From IMG/VR virus record IMGVR_UViG_3300020477_000072, positions 1 to 36,160 of that record: a stretch of 36,160 nucleotides of DNA; one strand, 5' to 3'. Positions 8,930 to 34,828 of this stretch are shown here, piece by piece. The translations under genes were made by a program, and so were the position numbers. Every line of letters starts with the position of its first letter. Position 1 is the first letter of the stretch. The stretch is from a virus. Under the pieces are notes generated by a model. The model saw only the letters and a program-made list of their open reading frames with translations, was not told the DNA's origin and did no database searches.

Positions 8930-8939
8930 GAAATGAACT

Positions 8940-11944: not shown

Positions 11945-11947
11945 TAG

Positions 11948-14389: not shown

Positions 14390-17300
14390 TGGCTGATCCA
14401 CATAATGAAAATAAACAAATCTTTAATCCTGATGCAAAAGAAACTGATCTAACAGTTTTTAAAAATATAGAATCAGCTTATTCTCCTCTTCCACCTAATT
14501 ATGGAAAATCAAATATCAAATATGATATGGGATTTGTATCTGATTCTATTGATGAATGGAACTTATACTGGATGGGGCAACTATGGAATCACCGTGATGG
14601 AACTTGGCAAGATAAAGGGGTTGATCCAAACTATGATCCATTTGCAAAAGACAATTTAGAGGGATATGAACAATATGCTAATAAGTTTACTGATGTAATT
14701 AATAAAGAACATCACGACTTCTTAAAAGAAAATATAGATAAGAATTTAGATCGAAGAACAAGATTAGAAGCAAGTGAGAGAGGTATATTACCAGCATTAG
14801 TAGCTGGAGTATTTGATCCTGTTAATTGGATTCCTATTCCATTTGCGGCAGGTATAGGATTTGGTTCAAGATTTTTAAAAGGTGGTTTAATTGCCTCAGG
14901 ATTAGTAGGTGCTACAGAACCTATTAGAAGAACATTAGATCGGACATCTACAAATGAAGAAACATTTGCATATATAGCTGGATCATTTTTTCTTGGAGGT
15001 ATTTTAAGTGGAACATTTGGTAGAAGAATTGCACAAGAAACAATTAGAAGTAAAGGTGGAATAAATGGATTAGCAAAAACTTATTTCAAAGCACATCATA
15101 AAACTGAGGGGAAACCTGATTTTGAAGTAGATGGTTTTGATTGGAAGATAGGAGAAGATGCTTACAATGCAGTAGTAGTTAATGGTAATACTAATAGATT
15201 TGTAGGAAAAAAATATCAACCAGTATGGATGGATGTTATTAAACCATCAACAGTTAAAGTAGTAACAGAATCAGACATTATTAATATCGATAAACAAATT
15301 ACAGATATACAAGACAAGATAGTTAAAGGTGGATTTAAAATTAAACCTGAAGCAAAAACAAAACTACAAAATAAAATTGCAGAATTAGAACAAAAGAAAG
15401 CAGAACTTAAACCTAAAATTGGAGCAGAAGTTTTAACTAAATATAAAATGTATTTAGATGAGGGGCATTTAAGAAATTTATATGAACAAGCTAAAATTCA
15501 TCCTGAAGTTTTTGGAGCAAGTCCAATGAAAAAAGATATATTCAAATCGGCTGATGATTTTATAACATTTATGATGAAAAAAGAAGTATATAAAAAAATA
15601 GGTTACTTTAAAAAACGAGTAGATGAAACACCAGTAGATGCTGAGAATAGACTAAATGCTATGGTGTATGATGACTTATTAAAAACAGCAAAAATCGACC
15701 AAAGTACAGATACTAATAAATATTTAGAATGGGTAGAAGCGTGGTCTAATTATGGTGCGGCGGCAAAACTTTCAAGACAACTTAAGGACCCTTGGTTTGT
15801 GAGAAGAATGCACGAAATTTCAGGAGATTATGGAACTGCAACATATGGTAATAAATATGATGTAGCAACTATGCCATCAGCATATATGGAATCAAGTACA
15901 AAATGGTTTAGTCTATATAGAAATACTATTCACGGAATCAAAGATGATTTTAATGAATACAGATCAGGTAATGCAAATTCTGATAGAGTATTAGATATGA
16001 ACCTTTCTAAAGGAATTATCCAAACACAAGATGCTATGGATTATGCAATTACAAAAATGAATGGCAGAAATGATAATGTTAATCCAGTTAAAATGACTTG
16101 GAATGAATATAGTAGTAAAACATTTCACGCAGTAGTAGATGAAAAAGTTTATGGAGATTCAGCATTACCTCCAATGATAAGAAAATCAGCAGATAGAGTT
16201 AGAAAAATGATGAAGACAATGGGAGATGATGCAGAAGAATTAAAAATGTTTACATCTCAAGGTGCATATAAACAATTAATGGAAAAAAGATTAGGTCGTA
16301 TAGAAGAATTAGAAGCATTACTTGGAAAAACATCAGATGATATTGGAATTGCTATTAACAACTTTAATAAGTTAGAAAAATTTGTAGCAAGAATTAGAAA
16401 AACTAATCCAGACAAAACAATAGAAAATCAATATTTTAAAAAAGGTAAAGATTTTGATCTCGATAGAGGAACAGCACGATATATTAACAAACATTATAAA
16501 GAATTACCTGAAGAGTTAGATAGATTTTTAATGGAACAAAATGTTAAGGATTTAGAAACAGGAGAAATTCTAACTGCTGGAGTAGAAATTAGAGGAGGAC
16601 ATATCGGACAATTAAGAAGATTGTCGGAAGAACAAACATTTCCAGAATTCGTTACAGATACAAAGGCATTAAACAAATGGCAAATAGCACGATATAAAAA
16701 GATGCTAGATAAAGAAAATAATAGATATAAAGAAATTAAAAAAGAATTAGAAGATTATAATTTAGATAGTATCTCTCCACCCAACGAAACTAAAAATACA
16801 TATTTAACTAGAATGTGGAGATTAGAAAAGATTGAACAAAATCCTGAAAAATTAAAAGCTATATTACATAAACATTTTACAGCTCATCCTCTTAGATTAA
16901 GAAAAAATAAAAAGAATGCCTTAACAGGAGAACGACAAATTGAATATATATCAACTGATCCTGATAAAGTACAAGCAAGAGTAGATGATGCATTTGAAAC
17001 AATAACAGAACAAGCAAGATTAATGGATGCCGAGGGTTTTGCAGGTTTCCATAGAGGAAGAGCAGGAGCAAAACCTTTAATGACAAGAAAAATAGATATT
17101 CCTAATCGAGAGGTAATGGAGTTTATTGAAACAGATGTAGAGTATGTGTTGCGTCAATATTATTTAAGAATGGGTCCATCTATAGAACTAGCAAGAAATT
17201 TTGGAGATAAAAATTTAGAAAGTTTTATGCATCAAGCTGAAATGAGATTAGTCCGTAAACATTTAAAAAAAGAAGCAGATAATAATATGGTTGATAGAAT

Positions 17301-18720
17301 GCTTAATTACTTTGAAGATGAAAAAGATAAGTTACTAGGACATCTTAATTTAGAGGATCCATCAACTTTATCAAAAAGATCAGCATCTCTTTTACGAGAT
17401 TGGGCAAGTACAGCATTTATGGGTAAAGTTATATTTTCTGCACAAGTAGATATGGCAAGACCAATAGCAGTTAATGGATTTAAAGAAACTTTTAAACACG
17501 GAAGATTACCTAAATTTTTAAGAAATATGGGAGCATATAAAGATGCTATTGCTGAATTAAAAGAACTATCTCCTGCGGCTGAAATTGTAATGGGTTCGGC
17601 TCGTAAAAGAGTAATGGAAGATGGAGGACAAATTGGTTTAGGTCGAACATCATTAGGAAGAATTTTTGATAAATATGTTGCACAACCATTACATAAAATA
17701 CAAGGACCATTTTATATAGCAAACTTATTAGCACCTTGGACAGTATTATGGAAAGATTTTCAAGGCATTCTTTCTGCACATAGATTAATACAAGATTCAA
17801 TAAAAGTATCTAAAGGCACAGCAACTCAATTTGAATTAACAAGATTAGCAAGTTATGGAATAGATATTAAAACAGCTAAACTAATATCAAGAATGCCTTA
17901 TGAACTAATAGATGGAAATTTATATGTATCTAATTCTAGTAAATGGCAAAATTATAATGGAGGATTACAAGCGATACATAAATTTAGACAAGCAATATAT
18001 GGAGATGTAAATCGTACAATTATAACACCAACTCCAACAGATCAATTTAATTTAATGCACGGAGTTTTTAGAGTTAATAACGATCAAATAGCTAAACAAT
18101 TCGATGAGGGATTAATAGGACCTGATAGACATATTTGGAAATTACTTGGTTTTCAAAAAACAGAAAGAGGAGGAAAATTTAGTAACTCGTGGGGAGGTTT
18201 ACCATTCCAATTCTTTTCTTGGGCAGTAGCGGCAAATAGAAAATTAGTTATATCAGGATTACAAGGAAGAGAATTAAATGCTATGGCAGGGATAGTAGCT
18301 ATGATTTCATTTGGAATGATGGGAGATTATTTTAAAAACCCTAGGTACTGGGTACAAAAATCTATGGAAGAAAAAATAATTAGAGGAGTAGAATTATCAG
18401 GAATACTTGGTATATTTACAGATGTTAATTTTATGTTAGAAACTATATCAGGTGGTATGTTTGATACTCCTATAGGAATTAGACCAATGACAGGACAAAA
18501 TTTAAGATTTGGTGATCCTGATGTAGCAGATGCATTAGGAGAATTTTCAGGAGCAGGACCATCTATACCATTAGATTTATTATATGCTTTTATGACGAAT
18601 CAAGATTATGATGAAAAATCAGCAACAATGAGAAGAATAATTCCCTTGAATACTTTATGGTTCTGGGATAGAACATTTAAAAACCTATGGGATTGGGGCG
18701 AAGAAAAATTAAGATATTAA
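14389..18720 (+). CDS. Internal virion protein (T7 gp16-like), no transglycosylase motif
   Basis: The 1443-aa product is the largest in the genome and follows the gp15-like gene with a TAATG overlap. It begins with a soluble region, then a hydrophobic Gly/Ala-rich stretch (LVAGVFDPVNWIPIPFAAGIGFG and following, residues about 134-215) and a long helical body. Position and size fit gp16, which lines the inner-membrane channel during ejection. Unlike T7 gp16, I do not see the ES-x-F lytic transglycosylase motif near the N-terminus, so cell-wall cutting at entry would need another virion enzyme. Confidence 0.82.
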   Translation: MADPHNENKQIFNPDAKETDLTVFKNIESAYSPLPPNYGKSNIKYDMGFVSDSIDEWNLYWMGQLWNHRDGTWQDKGVDPNYDPFAKDNLEGYEQYANKFTDVINKEHHDFLKENIDKNLDRRTRLEASERGILPALVAGVFDPVNWIPIPFAAGIGFGSRFLKGGLIASGLVGATEPIRRTLDRTSTNEETFAYIAGSFFLGGILSGTFGRRIAQETIRSKGGINGLAKTYFKAHHKTEGKPDFEVDGFDWKIGEDAYNAVVVNGNTNRFVGKKYQPVWMDVIKPSTVKVVTESDIINIDKQITDIQDKIVKGGFKIKPEAKTKLQNKIAELEQKKAELKPKIGAEVLTKYKMYLDEGHLRNLYEQAKIHPEVFGASPMKKDIFKSADDFITFMMKKEVYKKIGYFKKRVDETPVDAENRLNAMVYDDLLKTAKIDQSTDTNKYLEWVEAWSNYGAAAKLSRQLKDPWFVRRMHEISGDYGTATYGNKYDVATMPSAYMESSTKWFSLYRNTIHGIKDDFNEYRSGNANSDRVLDMNLSKGIIQTQDAMDYAITKMNGRNDNVNPVKMTWNEYSSKTFHAVVDEKVYGDSALPPMIRKSADRVRKMMKTMGDDAEELKMFTSQGAYKQLMEKRLGRIEELEALLGKTSDDIGIAINNFNKLEKFVARIRKTNPDKTIENQYFKKGKDFDLDRGTARYINKHYKELPEELDRFLMEQNVKDLETGEILTAGVEIRGGHIGQLRRLSEEQTFPEFVTDTKALNKWQIARYKKMLDKENNRYKEIKKELEDYNLDSISPPNETKNTYLTRMWRLEKIEQNPEKLKAILHKHFTAHPLRLRKNKKNALTGERQIEYISTDPDKVQARVDDAFETITEQARLMDAEGFAGFHRGRAGAKPLMTRKIDIPNREVMEFIETDVEYVLRQYYLRMGPSIELARNFGDKNLESFMHQAEMRLVRKHLKKEADNNMVDRMLNYFEDEKDKLLGHLNLEDPSTLSKRSASLLRDWASTAFMGKVIFSAQVDMARPIAVNGFKETFKHGRLPKFLRNMGAYKDAIAELKELSPAAEIVMGSARKRVMEDGGQIGLGRTSLGRIFDKYVAQPLHKIQGPFYIANLLAPWTVLWKDFQGILSAHRLIQDSIKVSKGTATQFELTRLASYGIDIKTAKLISRMPYELIDGNLYVSNSSKWQNYNGGLQAIHKFRQAIYGDVNRTIITPTPTDQFNLMHGVFRVNNDQIAKQFDEGLIGPDRHIWKLLGFQKTERGGKFSNSWGGLPFQFFSWAVAANRKLVISGLQGRELNAMAGIVAMISFGMMGDYFKNPRYWVQKSMEEKIIRGVELSGILGIFTDVNFMLETISGGMFDTPIGIRPMTGQNLRFGDPDVADALGEFSGAGPSIPLDLLYAFMTNQDYDEKSATMRRIIPLNTLWFWDRTFKNLWDWGEEKLRY

Positions 18721-18721
18721 A

Positions 18722-19822
18722 ATGACAATAGCTAGTAGTAAAAATACACCTAGAGCATCTTATACAGCATCAGCTAGTCAAACTAGCTTTGCTATACCTT
18801 TTGAATTTTTTAGTACAAATGATGTAAAGGTTTATAATGGAACAACTTTATTAACTTACAATGCATCTCCAAGTAGTGCATCACAATATTCTATAACTGG
18901 AACTGCGGCATCATCCGATGATGCTTATGAATTTGGTTCAGGTGGATCAATAACATTAGGTGGAAGTGGAGCAAGTGCTAATGATATAATTACTATTATA
19001 AGAGATATAACATTAGAAAGAACTTCAGACTTTCCTCCAACTGGATCATTTGATATTGCCACATTAAATACACAATTAGATCAAATCAATGCTCAACTTG
19101 CAGATAGAAAACAACAAAGTGATCGTTCAATAAAATTAGCAGATACTGATTCAGTATCAGCAACATTAACATTACCTCCTAAAGCAACTAGAGCATCTAA
19201 AGTATTAGAATTTGATTCTGATGGAGATGTAGCAACAACTCTTTCAACTGCTAATTTATCAACACTTTCAGGACTTACATCTGAAATAGCAACAGTAGCT
19301 GGAATATCTAGTGAAATTACAACAGTATCAACAAATAATTCTAACATTTCAACTTGTGCGACTAATATTACTGCAATTAATAATGCAGGTACACACGCCA
19401 CAAATGCGGCTAACTCAGCAACAGCGGCGGCAACATCTGAAACTAATGCGGCATCTTCTGAATCAGCGGCGGCGGCTAGTGCTTCTAGTGCGGCGGCATC
19501 AGCAGGTGGTGGTACAGTTAAAGTAACTTCTGCTGATACTTCACCACACGATTTAAACACAAAATTATTAGTATCAGGGAACTTATCCAAAACTGTTAAT
19601 AATGCTGGTGGTAATGAAACATTAACATTATCAACTATCGGCGGAGCAGAAGTTTATGGATTTACAGTAAATGGTACAAATAATTTAATAGTAACAACAA
19701 CAAATAGTGGAGCAGATAGTATATCAAATGCAGATTATGCGTCATTTGATGATAAGCTATTTGCTTCTGTAGGATTTACATGGTCTTTAAATGCCAATGG
19801 AAACCTTATAGCAACGGTATAA
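18722..19822 (+). CDS. Tail fibre anchor protein (T7 gp17 N-terminal domain)
   Basis: The 366-aa product has the T7 tail-fibre N-terminal domain: YTASASQTSFAIPFEFF, NGTTLLTY, ITLGGSGASANDIITIIRDI, then RTSDFPPTGSFD and a helix AQLADRKQQSDRSIKLADTD. Residues about 180-265 are Ser/Thr/Ala/Asn-rich with heptad-like repeats (a trimeric stalk), and the end is a short beta-rich cap. At 366 residues it is far shorter than T7 gp17 (553), so it probably anchors the separate tip proteins encoded downstream. The Ala-rich stalk is written with GCG at every alanine that precedes another alanine. Confidence 0.88.
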   Translation: MTIASSKNTPRASYTASASQTSFAIPFEFFSTNDVKVYNGTTLLTYNASPSSASQYSITGTAASSDDAYEFGSGGSITLGGSGASANDIITIIRDITLERTSDFPPTGSFDIATLNTQLDQINAQLADRKQQSDRSIKLADTDSVSATLTLPPKATRASKVLEFDSDGDVATTLSTANLSTLSGLTSEIATVAGISSEITTVSTNNSNISTCATNITAINNAGTHATNAANSATAAATSETNAASSESAAAASASSAAASAGGGTVKVTSADTSPHDLNTKLLVSGNLSKTVNNAGGNETLTLSTIGGAEVYGFTVNGTNNLIVTTTNSGADSISNADYASFDDKLFASVGFTWSLNANGNLIATV

Positions 19823-19877
19823 AAAAGATGAATTTTAATAGTTTACATGAATTTAAAATAATGATATTTAAAATACT

Positions 19878-20348
19878 ATGGCAACGATAGATTTAGGAAA
19901 ATTAGCTTTTACATTTAGAGGTACTTATGCAGGAGGTACTGATTATACTCCTAGAGATGTAGTAACTTATACTGATGGGGGTGTATTAGGTACTTATATT
20001 TGTACTGCCAATTCAACAGGTAATGCTCCATCATCTGGTGGAACTGCACATGCTTCTTGGACATATATGTCAAAAAGTGCAAGTGGAATTTATGATGGTT
20101 CTTTATCATTAGGTTCTGCTGGTGATGCCTTGAAAGTGAATGGAGCAGGAAACGCATTAGAATTTGGCACGATTGAGGGTTCTGTTATTTCAACAGTCGG
20201 AACTACTTTTGCAAACTGGAATGATATAACTTCTAACTTAACAACTAATTTACCAAGCACACAAAATAAATTTTTAGCTGGACCAATAACTGTTACATCT
20301 CCCGCTGTATGGACAGTAACGGGAACTGGAACTTTAACAATTATATAA
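19878..20348 (+). CDS. Putative tail fibre / carbohydrate-binding protein
   Basis: The 156-aa product has FTFRGTYAGGTDYTPRDVVTYTDGG followed by TYICTANSTGNAP and ASWTYMSKS, split here as the pattern TYAGGTDYTPRDVVTY then W, which resembles small carbohydrate-binding (CBM5/12-like) modules in phage fibres. The C-terminal half is beta-rich and Thr/Ser-rich. It lies directly after the fibre anchor and opens the module in which CATG sites appear. A receptor-contact role is inferred. Confidence 0.65.
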   Translation: MATIDLGKLAFTFRGTYAGGTDYTPRDVVTYTDGGVLGTYICTANSTGNAPSSGGTAHASWTYMSKSASGIYDGSLSLGSAGDALKVNGAGNALEFGTIEGSVISTVGTTFANWNDITSNLTTNLPSTQNKFLAGPITVTSPAVWTVTGTGTLTII

Positions 20349-20350
20349 TT

Positions 20351-20965
20351 ATGACAACTTTAATAGTAGATAAAATTTCTCCAAAAACTGGTACAGGATT
20401 ACAAATAGGAGATAGTGGAGATACTATCACAGTACCATCTGGAGTAACTTTTGAGAATTTAGGAACAGCAACTGGATTTGGAACTGCTGGAATTATTGGA
20501 GTAAAAACAACTTTATTAACGACTTCTGGTGCAATATCTGGTTCTAATTGGCAAGAATGGACTGGGTTAAGAAATGAATATACTGCATCTAGTACATCAA
20601 ATAGATTATTACATCTTTGTCAAACATCAGTAGCAGTTGATTCAACTTCTTGTGTTTTTAAATTTTATAATAATACTACTTCAGCAAATACTGATAATGC
20701 AGTTGCTCCAAACGATAGTAGTAGAGTAGGCGCAACAGCAAGATCCCATGTTGGAGGAACTTCTTGGGGTTATACAACAATGTTTAGTGCATGGAGTACA
20801 CCACCTAATACAACTGCAAACCAATATACTGTAATGGGATGGGAACATAACGCGGGATCAATAAGATATAACAGTAACCATGATAACGGAGATAGTTTTA
20901 CTTGTGATAGAATGAGAGCAATTTCTCAATATACAATAATAGAATTTGCAAGTGGAGTATTATAA
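20351..20965 (+). CDS. Fibre/tip protein, tandem paralogue 1
   Basis: ATG at 20351 is preferred over an in-frame upstream ATG at 20309, because paralogues 2 and 3 begin at the equivalent place. The 204-aa product has an N-terminal module of the type VDKI-P-TGT-LQIGDSGDTITVPSG, then a beta-rich domain with NRLLHLCQTS, VFKFYNNTTSANT, TPPNTTANQYTVMGWEHN and the end QYTIIEFASGVL. The IG-SG-IxIPSG repeat is common in phage fibre proteins; the C-terminal domain is likely a trimeric receptor-binding head. Stop and next start overlap. Confidence 0.72.
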   Translation: MTTLIVDKISPKTGTGLQIGDSGDTITVPSGVTFENLGTATGFGTAGIIGVKTTLLTTSGAISGSNWQEWTGLRNEYTASSTSNRLLHLCQTSVAVDSTSCVFKFYNNTTSANTDNAVAPNDSSRVGATARSHVGGTSWGYTTMFSAWSTPPNTTANQYTVMGWEHNAGSIRYNSNHDNGDSFTCDRMRAISQYTIIEFASGVL

Positions 20966-21588
20966 TGGCTAGTGAAATAAAAGTAGATAAAATAACACCA
21001 TATACTGGAACATCTCTTACATTGGGAGAGAGTGGACAAAAATATCAAATACCATCTGGTGCAACAATAGCCAATAGTGGTACTGTTTCTGGTATAGGTG
21101 GAGCTAATATAGTTAAAGTATCAAGTGTTAGAATGACTGGTAGAGTAGCTTTTTCTGCCTCTGGAACTTCTTGGACAGAGATGACTGGATTACAATTAAC
21201 TCATACAGCGGCAAGTACATCTAATAGATTATTATTTATATGTACTTTTACTGGAACAGAGGATGGAACTTCTTGGCATTGTAAATTTTATAATAACACA
21301 ACATCAGCTAATCCTACGGGTGCAGTACATCCAGGAGAGGGTAGCCGACCAGGTTGCACATCTAAACACAATCAAAATAATGGTTCTTGGGGAACAACTA
21401 TCCCAATGATTACTTGGGTTACACCACCAAATACATCTGCAAATCAATATACAGTTATGGCGGCTAGTCATAGTGGAACTGGTTATGCAAATAGTAATCA
21501 AAATAATTCTGATAGTGGTAATGCTGATAGTGTAAGAACTATTTGTCAATTTACAATCATTGAAGTAGATAGTGGAGGAGTGGCATAA
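20965..21588 (+). CDS. Fibre/tip protein, tandem paralogue 2
   Basis: The 207-aa product aligns with its neighbours from end to end: IKVDKITPYTGTSLTLGESG and YQIPSGATIANSGT, then NRLLFICTFTGTEDGTSWHC, KFYNNTTSANPTG, TPPNTSANQYTVMAASH and QFTIIEVDSGGVA. It is closest to paralogue 1 in the KFYNNTTSAN and PPNT-ANQYTVM blocks. Insert positions between the shared blocks differ, which is expected if exposed loops diversify. Translation is coupled to paralogue 1 by a one-base overlap of TAA and ATG. Confidence 0.72.
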   Translation: MASEIKVDKITPYTGTSLTLGESGQKYQIPSGATIANSGTVSGIGGANIVKVSSVRMTGRVAFSASGTSWTEMTGLQLTHTAASTSNRLLFICTFTGTEDGTSWHCKFYNNTTSANPTGAVHPGEGSRPGCTSKHNQNNGSWGTTIPMITWVTPPNTSANQYTVMAASHSGTGYANSNQNNSDSGNADSVRTICQFTIIEVDSGGVA

Positions 21589-21589
21589 T

Positions 21590-22219
21590 ATGAGTGAATT
21601 AAAAATAGATAAAGCAAGACCAATAAATCCAACTGGAACAATTCAATTATGTGAAAGTGGAGATACTATTACTATTCCTGCTGGTGCGACTTTTGCAAAT
21701 TCTGGAACAACAACGGGTTTAGTGCCTGGTGATGTAGTTAAAATATCCAATGTTAAATATGAGGGTAGAGATAGTCATGGCTCAACTCATACTTGGTATG
21801 CTCTAACTGGTTTAAATTTATCACACCAAGCCGCTAGTACAAATAATAAACTTTTATTTTTGGCTCAAAATGTTGGAACTTTAAATCCAGGAGGTTCTTC
21901 TTTTTCATATAGATTTTATGACAGAACTAATAGTGATGACATGAAAGGTTCTGCTAATGCTCAAACAGATGGGAGCAGACCACTAGGAAATGCTAAATCA
22001 TATTGTGATAGTACATCTTGGGCTACTTGTTCATCAATGATGGCTTGGGTAACTCCAGCTAATACTGGAATAATTCAGTATGGTATTGATGTTATGCACC
22101 AACACGCTGATTTTAGAACAAATGGAAATTATGATAATAGCGATAGTGGAACAGTTGACAGATCAAGAGGTTTATCAACATTTACAATTATTGAATTTGA
22201 TAGTGGAGTAATAAAATAG
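21590..22219 (+). CDS. Fibre/tip protein, tandem paralogue 3
   Basis: ATG at 21590 follows the previous stop by one base; an in-frame upstream ATG at 21572 would overlap paralogue 2. The 209-aa product keeps the module pattern LKIDKARPINPTGTIQLCES, GDTITIPAGATFANSGTTTG, then NNKLLFLAQNVGTL, FSYRFYDRTNSDD, AWVTPANTGIIQYGIDVMHQH and TFTIIEFDSGVIK. It is the most divergent of the three. The set suggests repeated duplication of a receptor-binding gene. Confidence 0.72.
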   Translation: MSELKIDKARPINPTGTIQLCESGDTITIPAGATFANSGTTTGLVPGDVVKISNVKYEGRDSHGSTHTWYALTGLNLSHQAASTNNKLLFLAQNVGTLNPGGSSFSYRFYDRTNSDDMKGSANAQTDGSRPLGNAKSYCDSTSWATCSSMMAWVTPANTGIIQYGIDVMHQHADFRTNGNYDNSDSGTVDRSRGLSTFTIIEFDSGVIK

Positions 22220-22228
22220 GAGAATAAT

Positions 22229-22624
22229 ATGGCAGAAAAAGTAGATAGTTATTTAACATTAAAAGCAATACAGTTGCTTAATCCAAAAGCGGCAGTATCT
22301 GTTATTGATGATCCTGATAATAAAGGAGATGATGGAGAATGGGAAGAAACTATTGCTTGGTCTGGACATTATTATCCTAATGGAGAGGGTACTCCAATAG
22401 AAGTACAACCTAAATTTTCTCTTGAAGAAATACGGGCTAAATATCCAGAGGCACAAATTATTATTAATAATGAACAAGTTGGCAGAACAAGAGAAACTGC
22501 TTATGGAAGATTACAAGATCAATTAGATAAAATATACCACGATATTGATGCTGGTAAATTAGATAAAACTGGAGAATGGTTTAAATCTATTAAAGCTGTC
22601 AAAGACGCAAATCCATTTGAATAA
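22229..22624 (+). CDS. XkdW-like / fibre-associated small protein
   Basis: The 131-aa product ends with RLQDQLDKIYHDIDAGKL, then TGEWFKSIKAVKDANP, a pattern (QLD-x-I/W, short acidic linker, I-x-x-VK-x-x-(Y/N)P) found in XkdW-like small proteins that follow fibre genes in tailed phages and are suspected chaperones or virion accessories. A strong AGGAG site precedes the ATG. The N-terminal part has a PNGEGTPIEVQPKFSLEEI segment of unknown role. Confidence 0.6.
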   Translation: MAEKVDSYLTLKAIQLLNPKAAVSVIDDPDNKGDDGEWEETIAWSGHYYPNGEGTPIEVQPKFSLEEIRAKYPEAQIIINNEQVGRTRETAYGRLQDQLDKIYHDIDAGKLDKTGEWFKSIKAVKDANPFE

Positions 22625-22633
22625 TTTTATTTT

Positions 22634-23236
22634 GTGTTATTTCCTTTAACACCGCAAACAAATAGATTTATTACAACTCAATATAGCCGCACAAAATTTC
22701 TTACCGAACAAGGTATAGAAAAAATAATTAAAGGATTAGATAAAGATAAATGGATTGATGTTGGCGGTTATCAATCAAAAGAAGTTGGAATATCAGAGGA
22801 AGTAAAATCGGCTGATAGGATATGCCAAGCACAGTTCCTTAAAAATGATGTTCTTCCTTTATTTGAAATTAGCCAAGCTTTAAGACAAGCTAATGATGAA
22901 TATTGGAAATTAGAATTAAACCATATTAATTTAATAACCGACAATATAAGCGTTGTTAAATATAATACTGGAGGATTATTGAATTGGCACATGGATATAT
23001 GTGCAACTTTATCAACTAGAAAAATTAGTTTTACTATACAGCTTTCTGATCCAAAAGATTATGAGGGTGGAGATTTACAATTTTTTGAGGGAGATAAAAC
23101 AAAGATTAATCCAGCATTAAGGGAAAAAGGTTTATTAATTGTTTTTCCGTCTTACAGTTGGCATAGGGTTTTACCTATAACAAAAGGAACAAGGTATGCT
23201 CTAGTAGGATGGGTTCATGGACCAACCTTTAAATGA
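22634..23236 (+). CDS. 2-oxoglutarate/Fe(II)-dependent oxygenase 1
   Basis: The 200-aa product shows a complete 2OG-Fe(II) double-stranded beta-helix signature: H119-x-D121 (NWHMDIC), distal H177 (YSWHRVLP) and R187 (GTRYALVGW), which fits the 2-oxoglutarate-binding arginine. The GG-LQFF-G segment matches PKHD-type (PiuC-like) hydroxylases. The only start after the in-frame stop at 22622 is GTG 22634, without a visible ribosome site. It may hydroxylate a protein, DNA base or small molecule; the substrate is unknown. The second oxygenase gene overlaps its end. Confidence 0.88.
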   Translation: MLFPLTPQTNRFITTQYSRTKFLTEQGIEKIIKGLDKDKWIDVGGYQSKEVGISEEVKSADRICQAQFLKNDVLPLFEISQALRQANDEYWKLELNHINLITDNISVVKYNTGGLLNWHMDICATLSTRKISFTIQLSDPKDYEGGDLQFFEGDKTKINPALREKGLLIVFPSYSWHRVLPITKGTRYALVGWVHGPTFK

Positions 23237-23793
23237 TTAAAGTTATAGATAATTTTTTACCTAAACCAATTTTTAACAAACTGTTAAAATGTGTTGAAGA
23301 TGAATTTTTTAACTGGGAATGGCAAAATGACTCTATGGTTAATCCTACAACTGGAATAGGGGATGGAAAATTTAAATTTGGTATGACTTTATTTGTTCAT
23401 CCAAACTTAAAAAGTTCTGGCAGAAGAAGCCACGAATTATTACCATTGTTTTCTTTATTAAAAGATTATCAAGATGAAATAATACCATCTAAAACTTTAG
23501 TAAAATTAAAGTTAAATTTATATCCTAATGAGGGTAAGCAAGTAAAACACGGGAGACATAGCGATATAACTAATAATGGAGAATTAGATAAGAGCATTAT
23601 TACTTCTGTTTTTAATTTTCATACTTGTAATGGATATACAGTAATAGAAAAAGAAGATGGAACTGAACAAAAAGTTCCGTCTGTTGCAAATCAGATTGTT
23701 ATATTTGATAATACTTGGCATTATGGGGTTACTCAATCTGATATTCCTAGAAGAATTTTATTAAATATGAATGTGGCTATAAAATCCCCATAA
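23233..23793 (+). CDS. 2-oxoglutarate/Fe(II)-dependent oxygenase 2
   Basis: The 186-aa product has H109-x-D111 (GRHSDI), distal H163 (NTWHYGVT) and Arg173/174 (PRRILLNMN), all consistent with 2OG-Fe(II) oxygenases; the start IKVIDNFLP is typical of this superfamily's first strand. It overlaps oxygenase 1 by ATGA, so the two are made together, but they share little sequence beyond the signature. Substrate unknown. Similar enzymes are frequent in marine phages. Confidence 0.82.
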   Translation: MIKVIDNFLPKPIFNKLLKCVEDEFFNWEWQNDSMVNPTTGIGDGKFKFGMTLFVHPNLKSSGRRSHELLPLFSLLKDYQDEIIPSKTLVKLKLNLYPNEGKQVKHGRHSDITNNGELDKSIITSVFNFHTCNGYTVIEKEDGTEQKVPSVANQIVIFDNTWHYGVTQSDIPRRILLNMNVAIKSP

Positions 23794-23836
23794 ATTAAAT
23801 CAATAAATCTATTGGTTTCTATCTCTTCTTAGTGTA

Positions 23837-23852
23837 TTCATACTTGTATGAA
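23837..23852. promoter_or_regulatory. Palindrome over a start codon
   Basis: TTCATACTTGTATGAA is a 16-base near-perfect palindrome (7-base arms, TT centre) whose right arm contains the ATG of the following ORF at 23848. As RNA it can form six pairs around a CTTG tetraloop and hide the start codon; as DNA it could be an operator. A weak promoter-like TTGGTT (23812) 17 bases before TATTCA (23835) overlaps it. It sits in the 54-base gap between the oxygenases and the next operon. Confidence 0.45.
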
Positions 23853-24018
23853 GAACTATGAAGTACCCTACAGTTTTGAAATTAAAGAACTAGCAAACGG
23901 AATGTTTGAAATCACTATCCGTGCTACAGGATTCATATCTCCTAGTGATGCAGAAAGATTCTTACACGACATCAATACTTATAGCTTTGATAAAGAAAAT
24001 AAAAGGACTATACACTAA
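23848..24018 (+). CDS. Hypothetical 56-aa protein
   Basis: ATG 23848 begins a 56-codon frame ending TAA 24016-24018; the sequence KNYEVPYSFEIKELANGMFE, ITIRATGFISPSDAERFLHD looks like a compact alpha/beta protein and not random translation. Its stop overlaps the ATG of the Cys-rich gene. No family recognised. The start codon lies inside a palindrome that may control translation. Confidence 0.6.
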   Translation: MKNYEVPYSFEIKELANGMFEITIRATGFISPSDAERFLHDINTYSFDKENKRTIH

Positions 24019-24149
24019 TGGAGAGAATATGTAAAAGCTGTAACCACGATTGTCATTGTACTGACGAACATATTGACGAGTACTTAGATATATGTCCTTG
24101 TAATAAATGTGATTGTGGACAAAAAGCAGAAGATACAACTTATGAATGA
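24018..24149 (+). CDS. Cysteine-rich metal-binding mini-protein
   Basis: This 43-aa product contains eight cysteines (residues 5, 8, 12, 14, 26, 28, 31, 33) and three histidines, arranged ICKSCNHDCHC and CPCNKCDC. Paired CxxC/CxC motifs suggest binding of one or two zinc ions or an iron-sulfur cluster. It is coupled to the gene before (TAATG) and overlaps the next by 8 bases. Tiny Cys-rich proteins of this kind are known in phages but have no assigned function that I can name. Confidence 0.65.
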   Translation: MERICKSCNHDCHCTDEHIDEYLDICPCNKCDCGQKAEDTTYE

Positions 24150-24327
24150 TAAATTAGTAACAGCATTATTAGCAATTCTTTTAGCTTTAGGTGGTTGGAA
24201 TTTATCCCAAACATTTAAACTGTCTAATGATATGATTGAAGTAATAGTTAAAGTTAATCATATTGAAAAAGTATTAGGCAAATCTTTGAAGAAGAAAAAG
24301 AAAAAGAAAAACAGTAATGCACAATGA
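24142..24327 (+). CDS. Small membrane-anchored protein, paralogue A
   Basis: ATG 24142 is preferred because it places the hydrophobic segment (residues about 5-20, LVTALLAILLALGGW) at the N-terminus, as in the paralogue at 24525. The 61-aa product continues NLSQTFKLS, a short helix, and ends in a poly-lysine tail. The LALGGWNLSQTFKLS stretch closely matches IALGGWSLSRTFELS in the gene at 24525-24779. Membrane anchor plus charged tail beside lysozyme suggests a lysis role (holin accessory or inner-membrane spanin), but this is inference. Confidence 0.65.
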   Translation: MNDKLVTALLAILLALGGWNLSQTFKLSNDMIEVIVKVNHIEKVLGKSLKKKKKKKNSNAQ

Positions 24328-24538
24328 AAGAGTAATAATAGTATTCCTTTTCCTAGTCTTAATTGGAGTGGGTTTAGTTGGATGTAAAGCAAATGTTCTT
24401 AATACTGCTGTGTGTCCTGATAAAACAAGTGTAGAAGTTGGAGTAACAGAAACAGATAGTAAGAATGATAAGTTACAAGAAAAGAAATCCATAACTCAAA
24501 CTTGGAAATGGGGAAAGAAAGTTTGTGATGACAGATAA
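24317..24538 (+). CDS. Small lipoprotein (candidate outer-membrane spanin)
   Basis: The 73-aa product has a classic lipoprotein signal: basic start, hydrophobic core VIIVFLFLVLIGVG and lipobox LVGC with Cys23 as the lipidated residue, leaving about 51 mature residues. It overlaps both flanking membrane-protein genes. A short lipoprotein nested with single-pass coiled-coil proteins next to lysozyme fits the outer partner of a two-component spanin, though typical o-spanins are proline-rich and this one is not. Confidence 0.65.
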   Translation: MHNERVIIVFLFLVLIGVGLVGCKANVLNTAVCPDKTSVEVGVTETDSKNDKLQEKKSITQTWKWGKKVCDDR

Positions 24539-24779
24539 AATTATGACATTATTAGTAGGAGTATTGATAGCTTTAGGTGGTTGGTCCTTATCTCGTACCT
24601 TTGAATTATCTACTATACAAGCAGTACACGAAGATAAAGTTGATAAATTAGAAAGACAAGTTATGAAGCTACAAGATAAAATGGATAAGATGATGGATTC
24701 AGATGAAGAGATTATGGAACAACACGAAGAGTTATTTAAAAAATTAGAACAAAGTAATACAGGGTATAGTTATAACTAA
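24525..24779 (+). CDS. Membrane-anchored coiled-coil protein, paralogue B (candidate inner spanin)
   Basis: The 84-aa product has one N-terminal membrane segment (residues about 6-22, IMTLLVGVLIALGGW) followed by SLSRTFELST and a clear coiled coil (DKVDKLERQVMKLQDKMDK). Its first 30 residues repeat the product at 24142. N-in topology with a periplasmic coiled coil is the plan of an inner-membrane spanin. The gene overlaps the lipoprotein gene by 14 bases and the next gene by one base. Confidence 0.65.
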   Translation: MMTDKIMTLLVGVLIALGGWSLSRTFELSTIQAVHEDKVDKLERQVMKLQDKMDKMMDSDEEIMEQHEELFKKLEQSNTGYSYN

Positions 24780-25156
24780 TGAATAAAATTAATGAAGCAA
24801 CAAATTTTAGTACAGATATAAAAACATTAACTATGGTTATTGCTGGTATAGCTGTAGCAGTATGGAGCTGGTCGATGATTAATAATAGATTAACACAATT
24901 AGAAACAGCTAAACAATTAATGCAACAAGATTTACTTGAAGCTAGTACACAAAAACCTATCGACCAAGAACAGTTTATGTTAATAGAACATATGGCAGGA
25001 CAAGTAGAAAAATTAACTACAAGAGTAGATGATATGATGCATAATAAAGTGATGATAAATTCTATTGCTAAAGATTTAGATAAAGCCCTTAATGATATTG
25101 AAAAATTAAAAGATAGTGTTAGAGCAAATATAGGAAAATTAAATGGAGAACATTAA
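24779..25156 (+). CDS. Membrane-anchored coiled-coil protein, 125 aa
   Basis: A hydrophobic segment at residues about 15-33 (TLTMVIAGIAVAVWSWSM) is followed by NNRLTQLETAKQLM and a long heptad-rich helix to the end (MAGQVEKLTTRVDDMM, then KDLDKALNDIEKLKDSV). It has the same plan as the two preceding small membrane proteins but is longer. It could be an inner spanin or a virion-independent membrane protein. ATG overlaps the previous stop (TAATG). Confidence 0.62.
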   Translation: MNKINEATNFSTDIKTLTMVIAGIAVAVWSWSMINNRLTQLETAKQLMQQDLLEASTQKPIDQEQFMLIEHMAGQVEKLTTRVDDMMHNKVMINSIAKDLDKALNDIEKLKDSVRANIGKLNGEH

Positions 25157-25372
25157 ATGATTCTAGAAACTGTATTTGCTTTATTGATGTTTGTAAATAA
25201 TGAGATCAAAGAACATAGAATACAAGATAATTTAAGTCTATGTTTAAAACATAAGAGAGAAGCCACAAGGCAAGTATCTAATTCTGTTACTTACAAGTGT
25301 ATTAAAACTAAAGCAGAAGTTGAAACCAATAAAGATGGTAGTAAAACCATTAAAAAACTGATATTAGAATAA
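25157..25372 (+). CDS. Hypothetical 71-aa protein with N-terminal hydrophobic segment
   Basis: It starts directly after the previous stop. Residues 2-14 (ILETVFALLMFVN) are hydrophobic and could be a signal or anchor; the remainder is hydrophilic with two cysteines (SLCLKHK and TYKCIKTKAEV) that could form a disulfide in the periplasm. It precedes lysozyme by four bases. Similar small proteins accompany lysis genes in marine phages; function unknown. Confidence 0.6.
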   Translation: MILETVFALLMFVNNEIKEHRIQDNLSLCLKHKREATRQVSNSVTYKCIKTKAEVETNKDGSKTIKKLILE

Positions 25373-25376
25373 CCAT

Positions 25377-25796
25377 ATGTCTGATGCTTTAAAAGAAAGA
25401 ATCAAGAAACACGAGGGATTCGTGAATGAAGTATATAAAGATTCCCTTGGAAAGCGAACAGTAGGATATGGACACCTATGCGTTGAAGATCATTGGGAAG
25501 ATGGTAAGAAATATTCTGAAGAATTTTTGAGTGGCATCTTCGATCAAGACTTCGCTAATGCTAACGGCTTAGCTTTAAAATTAATAGGAGATATTCCATT
25601 AAGACAATCTGCTAAAGAAGTAATAACTGAAATGTGTTTTCAACTAGGGTTCAAAGTTTCTCGCTTTGCAAAAATGTGGGATGCTCTTCAAAAGGATGAC
25701 TATGCTACTGCCTCACTCGAAATGTTAGATTCAAACTGGCATAAGCAAACACCTAAGAGATGTGAAGACTTAGCTAAGATAATGAAAGAGGGTTAA
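25377..25796 (+). CDS. Endolysin, T4-type lysozyme (GH24)
   Basis: The 139-aa product carries the T4-lysozyme active-site pattern: E13 in KKHEGF, D22 in VYKDSLG and T28 in RTVGYGH, with family spacing. It cuts the glycan strands of peptidoglycan at the end of infection. No signal peptide or membrane arm is seen, so release would need the holin-like product encoded right after it. The length is slightly below T4 lysozyme (164) but includes the C-terminal helices (SLEMLDSNWHKQTPKRC). Confidence 0.93.
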   Translation: MSDALKERIKKHEGFVNEVYKDSLGKRTVGYGHLCVEDHWEDGKKYSEEFLSGIFDQDFANANGLALKLIGDIPLRQSAKEVITEMCFQLGFKVSRFAKMWDALQKDDYATASLEMLDSNWHKQTPKRCEDLAKIMKEG

Positions 25797-25799
25797 TCA

Positions 25800-26177
25800 A
25801 TGTGGTTTAGTGCAATCAAGTTAGCTTTAAATGCTGGTACTCATATCTATAAGAATAGACAAAAAACTAAAATGTTAATGTCTGATGCTCAAATGAAACA
25901 CGCAGAAAAAATGAGTTCAGGTCAATTAGAATACTCAGGCAAATTATTAGAAGCACGACAATCAGACTGGAAAGACGAGTTCATATTGATACTGTTAAGT
26001 ATTCCTATCGTAATGCTCGGATTTTCAGTATGGTCTGACAATCCTGAACATATGGAAAAGATGAAACTCTTTTTTGAATACTTTTCTAATATGCCTTTTT
26101 GGTATCAATCAATTTTTGTGGGTGTCATAGCTAGTGTCTATGGTCTTAAAGCTACTGACTTGATTAAAAGGAAATAA
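25800..26177 (+). CDS. Holin-like membrane protein
   Basis: The 125-aa product has an amphipathic N-terminal half (about residues 5-50), then two hydrophobic segments at about 61-78 (FILILLSIPIVMLGFSVW) and 103-117 (SIFVGVIASVYGLKA), and a basic end LIKRK. Size, two membrane segments, basic C-terminus and position three bases after the lysozyme gene fit a holin. I do not place it in a named holin family with certainty. Confidence 0.68.
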   Translation: MWFSAIKLALNAGTHIYKNRQKTKMLMSDAQMKHAEKMSSGQLEYSGKLLEARQSDWKDEFILILLSIPIVMLGFSVWSDNPEHMEKMKLFFEYFSNMPFWYQSIFVGVIASVYGLKATDLIKRK

Positions 26178-26194
26178 TACTATAGGTAGAAATT

Positions 26195-26368
26195 ATGGAT
26201 AAAATTAAAATGATACTAGATGATGTGAAAAGACACCTGAAGAACGCATTTAAAGGGGCGTGGATTGACGATATGGGTATTAAGTGTACTCAATGTATGA
26301 ATAATCTAAGTCCTCGTGTATGGCTTTCTTTGGTCGTTCTAGCCCTAATTCTAGGTTTGTTCTTATGA
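26195..26368 (+). CDS. Small C-tail-anchored membrane protein, 57 aa
   Basis: ATG 26195 follows an AGG site and opens a 57-codon frame ending TGA 26366-26368. The N-terminal helix is charged (LDDVKRHLKNAFKGAW), a CTQC pair at residues 31-34 could bind metal or form a disulfide, and the C-terminus is a hydrophobic anchor (WLSLVVLALILGLFL). It may be a second lysis membrane protein. No family recognised. Confidence 0.6.
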   Translation: MDKIKMILDDVKRHLKNAFKGAWIDDMGIKCTQCMNNLSPRVWLSLVVLALILGLFL

Positions 26369-26371
26369 TAG

Positions 26372-26602
26372 ATGAAGTGGATTCTCATAATAACTGTATG
26401 TTCCTCACTCTCTAGTGGAAAAGTATGTGATCCTCCAAGAATCTTTGAGGATTATTCTTCTTGGCATAGTTGTATTGAAAGTGGCTTAGATAAATCTGTC
26501 GAAATTATGGCAGGAATTGATAAAGATATAGTCAATGGTTATCTTCTTGGTCCTAATATTTATTGTCAAAGACAACCTGAACAACCTAAAGTAGATACTT
26601 AA
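26372..26602 (+). CDS. Hypothetical small exported protein
   Basis: The 76-aa product begins KWILIITVCSSLSSGKVC, a short signal-like segment, and has four further-spaced cysteines that could pair in the periplasm. The pattern MKWILI-VCS followed by Cys-rich sequence recurs in small phage proteins of unknown function. It is the last plus-strand gene, and its stop overlaps the stop of the convergent minus-strand gene by four bases. Confidence 0.6.
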   Translation: MKWILIITVCSSLSSGKVCDPPRIFEDYSSWHSCIESGLDKSVEIMAGIDKDIVNGYLLGPNIYCQRQPEQPKVDT

Positions 26603-26850
26603 TCTTTACCATCATTATAACTTACAAAGTATTTACCATCTATACTTGTACAGTAATGGGCAAAGACTATCTTACCTTTATGTTTTCTATGAATCCATAC
26701 TTCTCCGTTACCCTCTTTATAATTTTTATTCTCTTCAAAGTATGTGTATTTATCCATTAGATCAGAACACCAATGACCTACTGCTAGTTGTGCTGGTATC
26801 TTAGATACTTCTCCATTGAGTAAGTGAATCATTAATACGACTAACTTCAT
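26599..26850 (-). CDS. Hypothetical 83-aa protein, last gene of minus operon
   Basis: The start is supported by an AAGGAG site. The product has a hydrophobic, signal-like start (KLVVLMIHLL), then a polar domain with two cysteines and several aromatic residues (SDLMDKYTYFEENKNY, IDGKYFVSYNDGKD). Possibly exported. It converges on and overlaps the plus-strand gene by four bases. No family recognised. Confidence 0.6.
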   Translation of the reverse strand: MKLVVLMIHLLNGEVSKIPAQLAVGHWCSDLMDKYTYFEENKNYKEGNGEVWIHRKHKGKIVFAHYCTSIDGKYFVSYNDGKD

Positions 26851-26861
26851 CTCTTAACTCC

Positions 26862-26996
26862 TTATCTTCCTTGTCCTCTATAGCGTTTTCTTTTGGTTTT
26901 TTTGTTTGGTCTTTTTGTGTGTCTTCCTTTTCTTCTGATTTTTTTTCGTTCAAATACAACTGCATTAAGAAGATTGTTTTTCTTTTTCTTTGCCAT
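26862..26996 (-). CDS. Small basic protein, 44 aa
   Basis: The frame starts at ATG 26996 with AKKKKNNLLNAV and ends GRHTKRPNKKTKRKRYRGQGR split by context; the GRHTK, NKK and KYRGQGR-like elements recur in very small basic phage proteins. It overlaps the zinc-finger gene by 32 bases in another frame and has no clear ribosome site. High Arg/Lys content suggests nucleic-acid binding. The low-complexity composition makes a chance frame possible. Confidence 0.45.
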   Translation of the reverse strand: MAKKKKNNLLNAVVFERKKIRRKGRHTKRPNKKTKRKRYRGQGR

Positions 26997-27243
26997 TTTT
27001 ATTATACTCTCTTGGAAGTTCAGGACATCCTGCACACAACCATTTATCATTGATTCCAAAGCATAAAGGTTCTTTACAATCTTTACATATACGATTGTTT
27101 TCTTTAAACTTTTCCATTTCTTCTCCAGCATTTAACACCTCATCATTTTGGCTAATGCTAACATCTGCTTTTTTATTTTTCATTAACCTTTTGTATTCTT
27201 CTTCTTGTCTTCTGAATCTTTCTTGCTGTTTCCAATTAACCAT
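26965..27243 (-). CDS. Zinc-ribbon-like 92-aa protein
   Basis: The N-terminal half is a charged helix (RFRRQEEEYKRLMKNKK). The C-terminal half has RICKDCKEPLCFG and KWLCAGCPEL, i.e. CxxC at 53-56 and CxxC at 70-73 with an extra Cys61, a plan typical of a single zinc ribbon. It overlaps the upstream gene by 8 bases. A DNA- or protein-binding role is inferred from the zinc site only. Confidence 0.65.
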   Translation of the reverse strand: MVNWKQQERFRRQEEEYKRLMKNKKADVSISQNDEVLNAGEEMEKFKENNRICKDCKEPLCFGINDKWLCAGCPELPREYNKNGKEKEKQSS

Positions 27244-27499
27244 ACCAGTTATATATACCCCATATGCCTAATATTACATAGGTTATCTCCATTAAAAATC
27301 TTCCGTACCCCTCTTGACTTCGATCTTGCCAACCCCAGTACGCCCACATAGAGCAAGATATAACGCCAAGCATCCACCCAAACGATTGATACTCGTTTAT
27401 CTTAAAAGTTGTTAATATAAATACACTACATATTGCTATACAAAATGCAATATACCTAGCTATCTTCGTGTCTAATTTTCTCCTTAATACTTTGTTCAT
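27236..27499 (-). CDS. Small integral membrane protein, three segments
   Basis: The 87-aa product has hydrophobic segments at about 14-32, 39-56 and 66-84 with a basic N-terminus (NKVLRRKLDTKIARY) and the sequence MWAYWGWQDRSQEGYG between segments 2 and 3. It overlaps both neighbours. Small three-segment membrane proteins of this look (GWMLG, WAYWGW) occur in phages; transport, superinfection exclusion or membrane remodelling are all possible. Confidence 0.62.
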   Translation of the reverse strand: MNKVLRRKLDTKIARYIAFCIAICSVFILTTFKINEYQSFGWMLGVISCSMWAYWGWQDRSQEGYGRFLMEITYVILGIWGIYNWYG

Positions 27500-27821
27500 A
27501 GGGCATCCTATATTCCTTATGATTTAAAAGTATGTCTATAAATAAATTGAGGTTAATGCAAACTAAAGTTTCTCCAAAATCTTCGTGTAAAAACAAGGCA
27601 TCTGCACCTTGTTTCCAGCGTTTAAGAGTCTTGAATCCTACTCCTCCTTTACGCCCTTTAACTTCTACATTAATACTGGGATTGTTGATTTGAATATCGT
27701 GTGGAAAATCTTGTAATGCTCCACTCATCGGTTGTCTTCGAGCAGACAAACCTCTCTTCTTCAATAACTTGACTAAATTATTTTCTATTCTGTAACCTTT
27801 TCTTTTGCTTTTATTAGTCAT
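27456..27821 (-). CDS. Hjc-like PD-(D/E)XK nuclease / Holliday junction resolvase
   Basis: ATG 27821 (inside the end of the upstream gene) is preferred over an ATG 21 bases further upstream because the family starts close to the KGYRIENNLVKLLKKRG helix. The 121-aa product has E13, D42 (FPHDIQI) and E53-x-K55 (NVEVKGRKGG), the catalytic set of archaeal Hjc-type resolvases, and the RQPMSGA segment that parallels R-x-P-x-SG in that family. It would cut four-way junctions or branched DNA before packaging and belongs with the recombination genes upstream. Confidence 0.78.
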   Translation of the reverse strand: MTNKSKRKGYRIENNLVKLLKKRGLSARRQPMSGALQDFPHDIQINNPSINVEVKGRKGGVGFKTLKRWKQGADALFLHEDFGETLVCINLNLFIDILLNHKEYRMPYEQSIKEKIRHEDS

Positions 27822-28008
27822 CAGGAATATACTCACTATCATCTCTCAATAATAATGCATTATCTTCCAGCTTAACTAAAGGGAATGCTTCATATGTTTT
27901 CTGAATATAATATTGTAATCTTTTAAACAATACATTATCAGGTTTATCCATCAAAGCATTAGCAATTAACTTAGCATCTAAACTAATTTCCTCTTGTTGC
28001 TTTACCAA
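27814..28008 (-). CDS. Hypothetical 64-aa protein (TTG start)
   Basis: The start is TTG at 28008, supported by AGGAGG eight bases upstream; no ATG is available. The product is helical and acidic with EISLDAKLIANALMDKP and a C-terminus LLLRDDSEYIPDD. It overlaps the LexA-like gene upstream and the nuclease gene downstream. No family recognised. Confidence 0.55.
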   Translation of the reverse strand: MVKQQEEISLDAKLIANALMDKPDNVLFKRLQYYIQKTYEAFPLVKLEDNALLLRDDSEYIPDD

Positions 28009-28240
28009 TTTTTATACCTCCTTTCTCGTAATCTCTATTAATAATTAATCTTCTTGAGTCGCCATACTTACCTACTTTCTTTAGGTAATCTTTTTTAATG
28101 AGTCTTTCTATTGCTCCCCAAGATTGTGAACGAGATTTAAAAGAACAGCCCTCAGTTATTTCTGAATAACTAGGACTGATCTTATGTTCTAAAATAAACT
28201 TCTTACAATATTGATATACTTTGTATTCGTTTCTTGTCAT
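27983..28240 (-). CDS. LexA-type winged-helix DNA-binding protein
   Basis: The 85-aa product TRNEYKVYQYCKKFILEHKI, SPSYSEITEGCSFKSRS, GAIERLIKKDYLKKVGKYGDSRRL follows the LexA N-terminal DNA-binding domain: T-x-x-E-x-x-VY-x-x-I, PSY-EI, SRS in the recognition helix, and a wing. There is no autoprotease domain, so it is a stand-alone regulator, perhaps of its own operon or of the terS promoter. Its ATG overlaps the SSB stop (TAATG). Confidence 0.7.
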   Translation of the reverse strand: MTRNEYKVYQYCKKFILEHKISPSYSEITEGCSFKSRSQSWGAIERLIKKDYLKKVGKYGDSRRLIINRDYEKGGIKIGKATRGN

Positions 28241-28665
28241 TAGAACGGAACCTCATTCTCCTCTTTTGTTTCAACAGTAGATTCTTTCGGCTCATCAATC
28301 CCTCCCTCATCATATGAGGAGGTCTTGGGTTCGCCTCCATTTGTTTTCTTGTCTAGCAATTTCATTTTGCTTTCGAATCTATCCAAATGTATTTCTGCTG
28401 TCTTCATTGGCTGTCCATCTTTTTCCCAAGATCGATATGTTAGTCTTCCTTGCAACAACACCATACTTCCTTTTGTTGTGTACCTTGCAAGTGTATCTGC
28501 GATACGATCATCCCATACTATGACCTTGTGCCAATCAGTTTCTTTTTCTCCTTTGATGGTCCTGTTTGTAGCTACACTTAATATGGCATAGCTACTTCCC
28601 TTTGAAGTTTGTTTTACTTCAGGATCACGACCAAGGTTTCCTATTATTACTATATTGTTATACAT
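28240..28665 (-). CDS. ssb: Single-stranded DNA-binding protein
   Basis: The 141-aa product has the SSB OB fold: NNIVIIGNLGRDPEVK, FAT-like SVATNRTIKGEKETDWHKVIVW split by context, LARYTTKGSMVLLQGRL and a linker rich in Gly/Glu/Ser. It ends EENEVPF, close to the DDIPF-type acidic tip that recruits replication and repair proteins. It follows the annealing protein and exonuclease genes (ATG lies inside the previous gene), forming a recombination set. An AAAGGAGA site lies upstream. Confidence 0.93.
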   Translation of the reverse strand: MYNNIVIIGNLGRDPEVKQTSKGSSYAILSVATNRTIKGEKETDWHKVIVWDDRIADTLARYTTKGSMVLLQGRLTYRSWEKDGQPMKTAEIHLDRFESKMKLLDKKTNGGEPKTSSYDEGGIDEPKESTVETKEENEVPF

Positions 28666-30128: not shown

Positions 30129-30131
30129 ATT

Positions 30132-31583: not shown

Positions 31584-31585
31584 AA

Positions 31586-32373: not shown

Positions 32374-32374
32374 T

Positions 32375-34672: not shown

Positions 34673-34713
34673 ACTCTTGTCCTCCCTAGTTGTATTGTTA
34701 TACTTTTGTTCTA

Positions 34714-34809: not shown

Positions 34810-34828
34810 TGTTGTAATTATGCAACAC

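Follow-up and report, generated by a model that had tools for sequence, protein, structure and literature searches.

Genes and features of the locus

The window examined here (the whole 36,160 nt stretch of virus record IMGVR_UViG_3300020477_000072) appears, from its sequence relationships, to be a podovirus genome of the Hodr-like pelagiphage kind, in which an imported, putative receptor-binding module is set into a phage backbone that is free of the tetranucleotide CATG. The nearest isolate is Pelagibacter phage Hodr EXVC031P (OQ414635), with ~79% nucleotide identity over 39% of the first 25 kb. The window has the same gene order as this isolate, so that it shares both genes and their order with a Pelagibacter phage, although Hodr has another fibre cassette and weaker CATG avoidance. 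Because of this relationship to Pelagibacter phages, the host is likely SAR11. The genome is near-complete (~36.05 kb), since its two ends share a 108-bp overlap (98% identity) and are bridged by contig L005. Backbone and module comprise the following features:

1..19318: backbone, left part (terminase, portal, capsid, tail tube, internal virion proteins, fibre N-terminus), without CATG; PHROG matches, similar to Hodr EXVC031P and IMG/VR contigs L004-L006
18722..19822, + strand: chimeric tail-fibre gene, 366 amino acids (aa), residues 1-199 of backbone type and ~235-366 of donor type
19323..19508: left crossover zone, within an Ala/Ser-rich coding stretch, placed by homology limits
19427..23780: imported, putative receptor-binding module, with all 10 CATG and 4 of the 5 CCWGG sites of the genome (site counts and homology)
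19878..20348, + strand: fibre-associated protein, 156 aa, 85% identical to L084 and 75% to L349; PHROG tail fibre
20309..20965, + strand: tip protein 1 (paralogue), 58% identical to L084; alignment of tip paralogues
20965..21588, + strand: tip protein 2 (paralogue), predicted TNF-like/lectin beta-sandwich (AlphaFold2 and Foldseek)
21572..22219, + strand: tip protein 3 (paralogue), 62% identical to L084; PHROG tail fibre
22229..22624, + strand: conserved protein of 131 aa, 66-69% identical to L084, L085, and L349; phrog_9114
22634..23236, + strand: 2-oxoglutarate (2OG)-Fe(II) oxygenase 1; PF13640, 59 bits against a cut-off of 27
23233..23793, + strand: 2OG-Fe(II) oxygenase 2, with H109, D111, H163, and R174 invariant in 8 homologues
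23781: right crossover; contig L334 is 98.6% identical from here rightwards and unrelated to the left
23794..36160: backbone, right part, CATG-free; L332-L334 are 98.6-99% identical and CATG-free

The three tip proteins are predicted to be lectin-like. For tip protein 2, the AlphaFold2 model (predicted local distance difference test score 68, core 85-91) was matched by Foldseek to the Pgp3 C-terminal domain and to the PLTL and BC2L-C lectins, which suggests, with moderate confidence, a beta-sandwich of the type seen in TNF-like and BC2L-C lectins and in the Pgp3 C-terminal domain. Oxygenase 1 has conserved the HxD...H...R residues (H119, D121, H177, R187) and is an optional insert, as it is absent from the otherwise syntenic module of contig L349, where the 131-aa gene is directly followed by oxygenase 2. 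Single-protein searches returned no close relatives of oxygenase 1, which were found only with an alignment as query. Its closest other relatives (46-55% identity) lie on contigs L190, L191, L193, and L194, where no other part of the module was detected, which suggests that this gene travels independently. Oxygenase 2 gave no Pfam match at E ≤ 0.001 and falls in phrog_274, a family whose name, DNA endonuclease V, is probably wrong given the HxD...H...R residues. It may be guessed that the oxygenases modify the tips or host surface molecules.

Palindrome avoidance in backbone and module

Counted by script over the whole window, CATG occurs ten times (19779, 19846, 20049, 20747, 20790, 20879, 21776, 21940, 22990, and 23216), always within 19779-23216, with none in the rest of the genome. 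An earlier sequence-only reading of this DNA had listed eight of these sites, all of them real, but had missed those at 19779 and 20790; its statement that the remaining ~33 kb hold no CATG stands after computation. Outside 19.32-23.79 kb, 117 sites are expected under a Markov model and 61.5 under synonymous-codon shuffling. Within the module, 10 sites compare with 13.9 expected (Markov model) and, in the coding part only, 9 with 15.5 (codon shuffling); depletion there is mild at most. The chance of ten random sites all falling inside 3.44 kb is ~6e-9, and a Fisher test of cassette against the rest gave P = 6e-9. CCWGG independently repeats the pattern, with one site in the rest of the genome and the other four in the module. 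A single GCGC and a single CGCG had also been reported as confined to the module (at about 20730 and 20851). The script recovered one of each, at 20730 and 20851, but neither carries weight alone (P = 0.15 each), and both were dropped as evidence of import. Script counts of GCWGC, ACGT, GGCC, and CCGG were zero in the whole window, which agrees with the earlier remark that the module lacks GCWGC.

The avoidance is also seen in codon choice. As had been noticed in the sequence-only reading, backbone histidine codons before a G are written CAC (44 times, CAT 0), while elsewhere CAT is preferred (109 vs 26). None of the 243 backbone methionine codons is preceded by C. In the module, CAT-G occurs five times and C precedes ATG twice. 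At 501 alignment positions where relatives carry CATG in the alignable backbone (drawn from several related contigs, and thus not independent), the window carries it nowhere and reads CACG at 274; control words are kept at 65% of comparable positions.

Palindromic tetramers at ≤10% of expectation number 6 of 16 in the backbone, compared with 1 of 236 non-palindromic ones; for hexamers, the figures are 8 of 27 and 3 of 1944. Words neighbouring CATG show no depletion. GCWGC is absent where 33.7 are expected and CASTG occurs once against 17, while GCSGC is found 27 times (15.2 expected). Also lacking are TGATCA, GATATC, GTTAAC, CAATTG, ACTAGT, AAGCTT, CTGCAG, GTATAC, and AGSCT, and in all the backbone is short of ~15-20 palindromes besides CATG, W-degenerate pentamers among these. 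CATG avoidance is selection on palindromes, the site being far below expectation after control for codons and composition, as in restriction-site avoidance. The avoided sets differ among relatives: ACGT is avoided by L004-L006 and not by L008-L010, others avoid TCGA, GATC, or GGCC, and no palindrome falls below the threshold in L059, L287, L090, and L245. Because only palindromes are missing and the sets differ among relatives, restriction by changing hosts is implied. Such shifting sets would be the trace expected from changing Type II restriction exposure, and suggest hosts with many Type II-like restriction systems.

Restriction-site avoidance is known from prokaryotic viruses (Rusinov et al. 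2018, PMC6286503), where, as here, short palindromes do not occur even though tens to a hundred would follow from composition. The window differs in that many words are avoided, the set varies among close relatives, the avoidance stops at the module border, and the probable host group is reported to lack restriction-modification (R-M) systems.

The module carries a record of its own. By codon shuffling, it holds 3 GANTC sites (13.9 expected) and 1 CTNAG site (4.6 expected), words present in full in the backbone (95 and 82, respectively). The different restriction history proposed earlier is thus supported, with a backbone short of CATG and CCWGG and a module poor in GANTC and CTNAG. The accompanying implication of a restriction-naive module fails, as GCWGC and ACGT are absent from the module and both GANTC and CTNAG are scarce there. 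Codon-shuffled values alone were used because raw densities are confounded by protein composition; those of TCGA, GATC, GANTC, and CTNAG were rejected as module markers, since they fall in other cassettes too. Among other phages carrying the module, L349 and L351 have no GANTC and no CTNAG and L085 has no CTNAG. Skadi-1, one of the Skadi phages related to the carriers, has no CTNAG against 44 expected. From the scarcity of both words in the module and in most carriers, we conclude that the module bears the mark of its donor clade. GANTC depletion has been reported in about half of pelagiphages, partitioning the pelagiphage tree (PMC9516812); the likeness lies in a methylation-related palindrome depleted in some lineages only, as in L349 and L351. 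Here, in contrast, the difference is found within one genome, involves many further words, and leaves backbone GANTC normal.

Cassettes that break the local avoidance recur in other genomes. In G002, another CATG-avoiding record, 7 of 10 CATG sites are found within the 5 kb that follow the fibre N-terminus and 3 in the 30.2 kb elsewhere (P = 9e-5), and in G004 the fibre cassette holds 3 of 5 (P = 0.03). All three GCWGC sites of the isolate Hodr are in its fibre cassette (P = 0.004). No clear CATG excess was found in the cassettes of G003 and G001. These recurrence tests (G001-G004 and Hodr) are few, and their P values are uncorrected for the number of words tried. A taboo-word test on the 8-12 kb flanks of 34 loci had too few words reaching the threshold.

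Borders of the module and its carriers

The tail-fibre gene is an in-frame chimera, joined in the Ala/Ser-rich stretch at ~19.32-19.51 kb. Its residues 1-199 are 60-83% identical to those of backbone relatives (L102, L103, L104, and Hodr) but only 26% identical to those of the module carriers L084 and L349, while its C-terminal part is 81% identical to L084. Homology to backbone relatives ends at 19322; homology to L084 starts at 19427 (nucleotide) or residue 262 (amino acid), and that to L349 at 19442. The open reading frame (ORF) is in frame across the junction. Contigs of related phages (L006, L102, L331, L321, and L328) frequently break off inside the fibre gene or shortly before it, which is what variation of cassettes within a population would produce.

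On the right, sister contigs L332-L334 are 98.6-99% identical to the window over 23.8-32.8 kb, and left of 23781 L334 holds the end of a different, Hodr-type cassette. Relatives with other cargo at the same border, for which the sequence-only reading had proposed to look, are thus found for the right border only. The last three codons and stop of oxygenase 2 (AAA TCC CCA TAA) are recipient DNA, because most homologues end at NMNV or within two or three residues, whereas the window ends NMNVAIKSP. Only ~7 nt are common to donor-type and recipient-type sequence at this junction. Borders had previously been placed near 19.82 and 23.24 kb, but homology gives ~19.32-19.51 kb and 23781, i.e., 0.3-0.5 kb further out per side, so that the final third of the fibre gene and the whole oxygenase 2 gene except its last codons fall inside the module. 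CATG resolves such borders to ~1 kb at best. Two stretches of the window, 24148-24767 (with tandem small membrane-protein genes) and 31352-31587, are missing from L334.

The same block is found on other backbones. In L084, a matching fibre C-terminus is followed by the same seven genes in the same order, with 44-85% identity across the block; L349 has a similar arrangement (without oxygenase 1), and L351 and L085 hold parts. Relatives therefore change sharply at the borders, and the block keeps its order on other backbones (L084, L349, and L351), as in an exchanged module. The internal virion protein of L351 is 59% identical to that of the Skadi phages (OP131293-OP131302), although Skadi-1, besides lacking CTNAG, has another fibre. 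Three of the ten CATG sites of the window are shared by L084. Taken together, the fibre chimera, the synteny on other backbones, and the alternative cassette of L334, none of which uses CATG, confirm at the level of sequence comparison the earlier suggestion of a recent import, apparently from another phage lineage. The exchange is recent relative to the 98.6% identical sister.

Exchange of tail-fibre or receptor-binding modules is known from T-even, lambdoid, and many other phages, likewise with a conserved N-terminal fibre anchor, a swapped C-terminus and downstream tip genes, sharp similarity borders, and different cassettes in sister phages. Here, by comparison, the module is shared with other backbone lineages and includes two 2OG oxygenases, and its border shows up where restriction-site avoidance breaks off. 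Both phenomena, fibre exchange and site avoidance, are already known; in the literature searched, we found no receptor module delimited by such a break. According to a 2022 paper (PMC9004378), SAR11/OM43 virus-host systems had until then provided no demonstration of homologous recombination.

Other exchanges are suggested elsewhere in the backbone. Contig L006 is 95% identical to the window up to 13023 and ~70% beyond; this position, inside an internal virion gene, appears to be a second recombination border, between two CATG-free phages. The lysozyme region (25349-26368) is 88% identical to L103/L107, compared with ~72-75% elsewhere. Free of CATG in the window but containing two such sites in L103, this region seems to have been exchanged independently and at an earlier time.

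Origin of the module

We propose, with a probability of about 85%, that the receptor-binding cassette was replaced by recombination from another lineage, leaving a CATG-free backbone around a module that has not yet been purged. Several observations weigh against this. The module of L084 shows no depletion of GANTC or CTNAG, GCWGC is missing from the module of the window but present in the fullest carriers (L349, L351, and L084), the Hodr cassette is also low in GANTC, and the module itself is mildly depleted in CATG by codon shuffling. The module would be either partly purged or of mixed origin, i.e., from a donor with a mixed history. Its identity to the best carriers is ~70-73% at the nucleotide level, and the search did not turn up the donor itself. 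The left junction is covered by no sister contig, and the nearest CATG-free relatives are represented by contigs that run out at the fibre gene or close to it. Moreover, the search for a host with a cognate R-M system came up empty (no SAR11 contig emerged from the genome scan), and a survey of SAR11 proMAGs reports no R-M (PMC9516812).

An assembly artefact, in which module and backbone of two phages were joined in silico, is improbable. The record does come from a metagenome collection, its junctions appear on no independent contig, and its nearest relatives have assemblies that are interrupted at the fibre gene or close by. However, a fibre ORF that stays in frame, a right junction with too few common nucleotides (~7) for a k-mer join, and genome ends overlapping by 108 bp all speak for a real molecule, and taboo-breaking cassettes recur in isolate Hodr and in G002. 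We can give hardly any credence to an effect of composition or codon usage in the backbone genes, with the module differing through the amino-acid make-up of its fibre proteins. Although GATC, GANTC, and CTNAG do vary with protein type and are low in several cassettes, codon shuffling, which keeps proteins and codon usage, still predicts 61.5 backbone CATG; histidine codons switch to CAC only before G, neighbouring words are undepleted, and the missing words are palindromes.

It is also very improbable that the module is old and native, with its CATG sites kept as functional or protected, for instance by methylation. Its mild CATG depletion could then be an equilibrium under weaker selection, but the fibre gene is chimeric, the 98.6% sister has another cassette, and conservation of three of the ten CATG in L084 gives no appearance of constraint. 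Less easily set aside, though still unlikely, is a real import combined with CATG avoidance that owes nothing to restriction and instead reflects something encoded by the phage, for example its own nuclease for breaking down host DNA, or another process. This would fit the reported lack of R-M in SAR11 proMAGs (PMC9516812) and the failure to identify a cognate system here. Nonetheless, a single phage enzyme could not account for ~15-20 missing palindromes, some of them W-degenerate pentamers, and sets that change between close relatives (ACGT in L004-L006 vs L008-L010) are typical of changing Type II exposure.

Genes of the right backbone that may have helped to replace the cassette by recombination with another lineage, or that may counter restriction, are the following:

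27456..27842, - strand: Holliday-junction resolvase-like protein, candidate recombination gene; phrog_244
28240..28665, - strand: single-strand DNA-binding protein; PF00436
29253..30128, - strand: YqaJ-type exonuclease, candidate recombination gene; PF09588
33061..33963, - strand: ArdC-like anti-restriction protein; PF08401, PF18818, phrog_7245

A single-strand annealing protein suspected at 28658-29260 was supported by no library. A host link of contig L110 to a Rhodobiaceae metagenome-assembled genome is probably misbinning and was not used.

Two phages would have co-infected one cell and exchanged the cassette by recombination, probably helped by the phage's own exonuclease (29253-30128), single-strand DNA-binding protein, and resolvase-like protein. 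A 4.4 kb host-recognition block would thereby have been taken in, with recipient sequence supplying the last codons and stop of oxygenase 2. The CATG-free backbone may record long selection by hosts restricting CATG and many other palindromes, while the module may record a donor history without CATG restriction, too recent for its CATG to have been purged. New tips would have changed the receptor. Because a host that restricts CATG would put a phage with ten such sites at risk, this phage has probably moved to a host that does not cut CATG; alternatively, the ArdC-like protein (33061-33963) or a modification may mask the sites. Both restriction as the cause of avoidance and the host switch are our interpretation of these patterns.

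More speculatively, and at somewhat less than even odds, pelagiphage lineages may carry restriction barcodes, in which the targets of past hosts' Type II-like systems have been purged. SAR11, or an unrecognised host group, would then have a large, fast-changing repertoire missed by genome surveys. Cassette swaps would move phages between host sets, and the purge of an imported cassette would serve as both a clock and a label of the host of origin.

The genome thus holds two host histories side by side, one in a palindrome-cleansed backbone and the other in an uncleansed host-recognition block. In it, the swap of a receptor module from one phage lineage to another can be seen directly, in a group whose probable hosts are the most abundant bacteria of the ocean. 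The avoided words predict which restriction specificities to seek in SAR11, and restriction of phage DNA by SAR11 thereby becomes testable.

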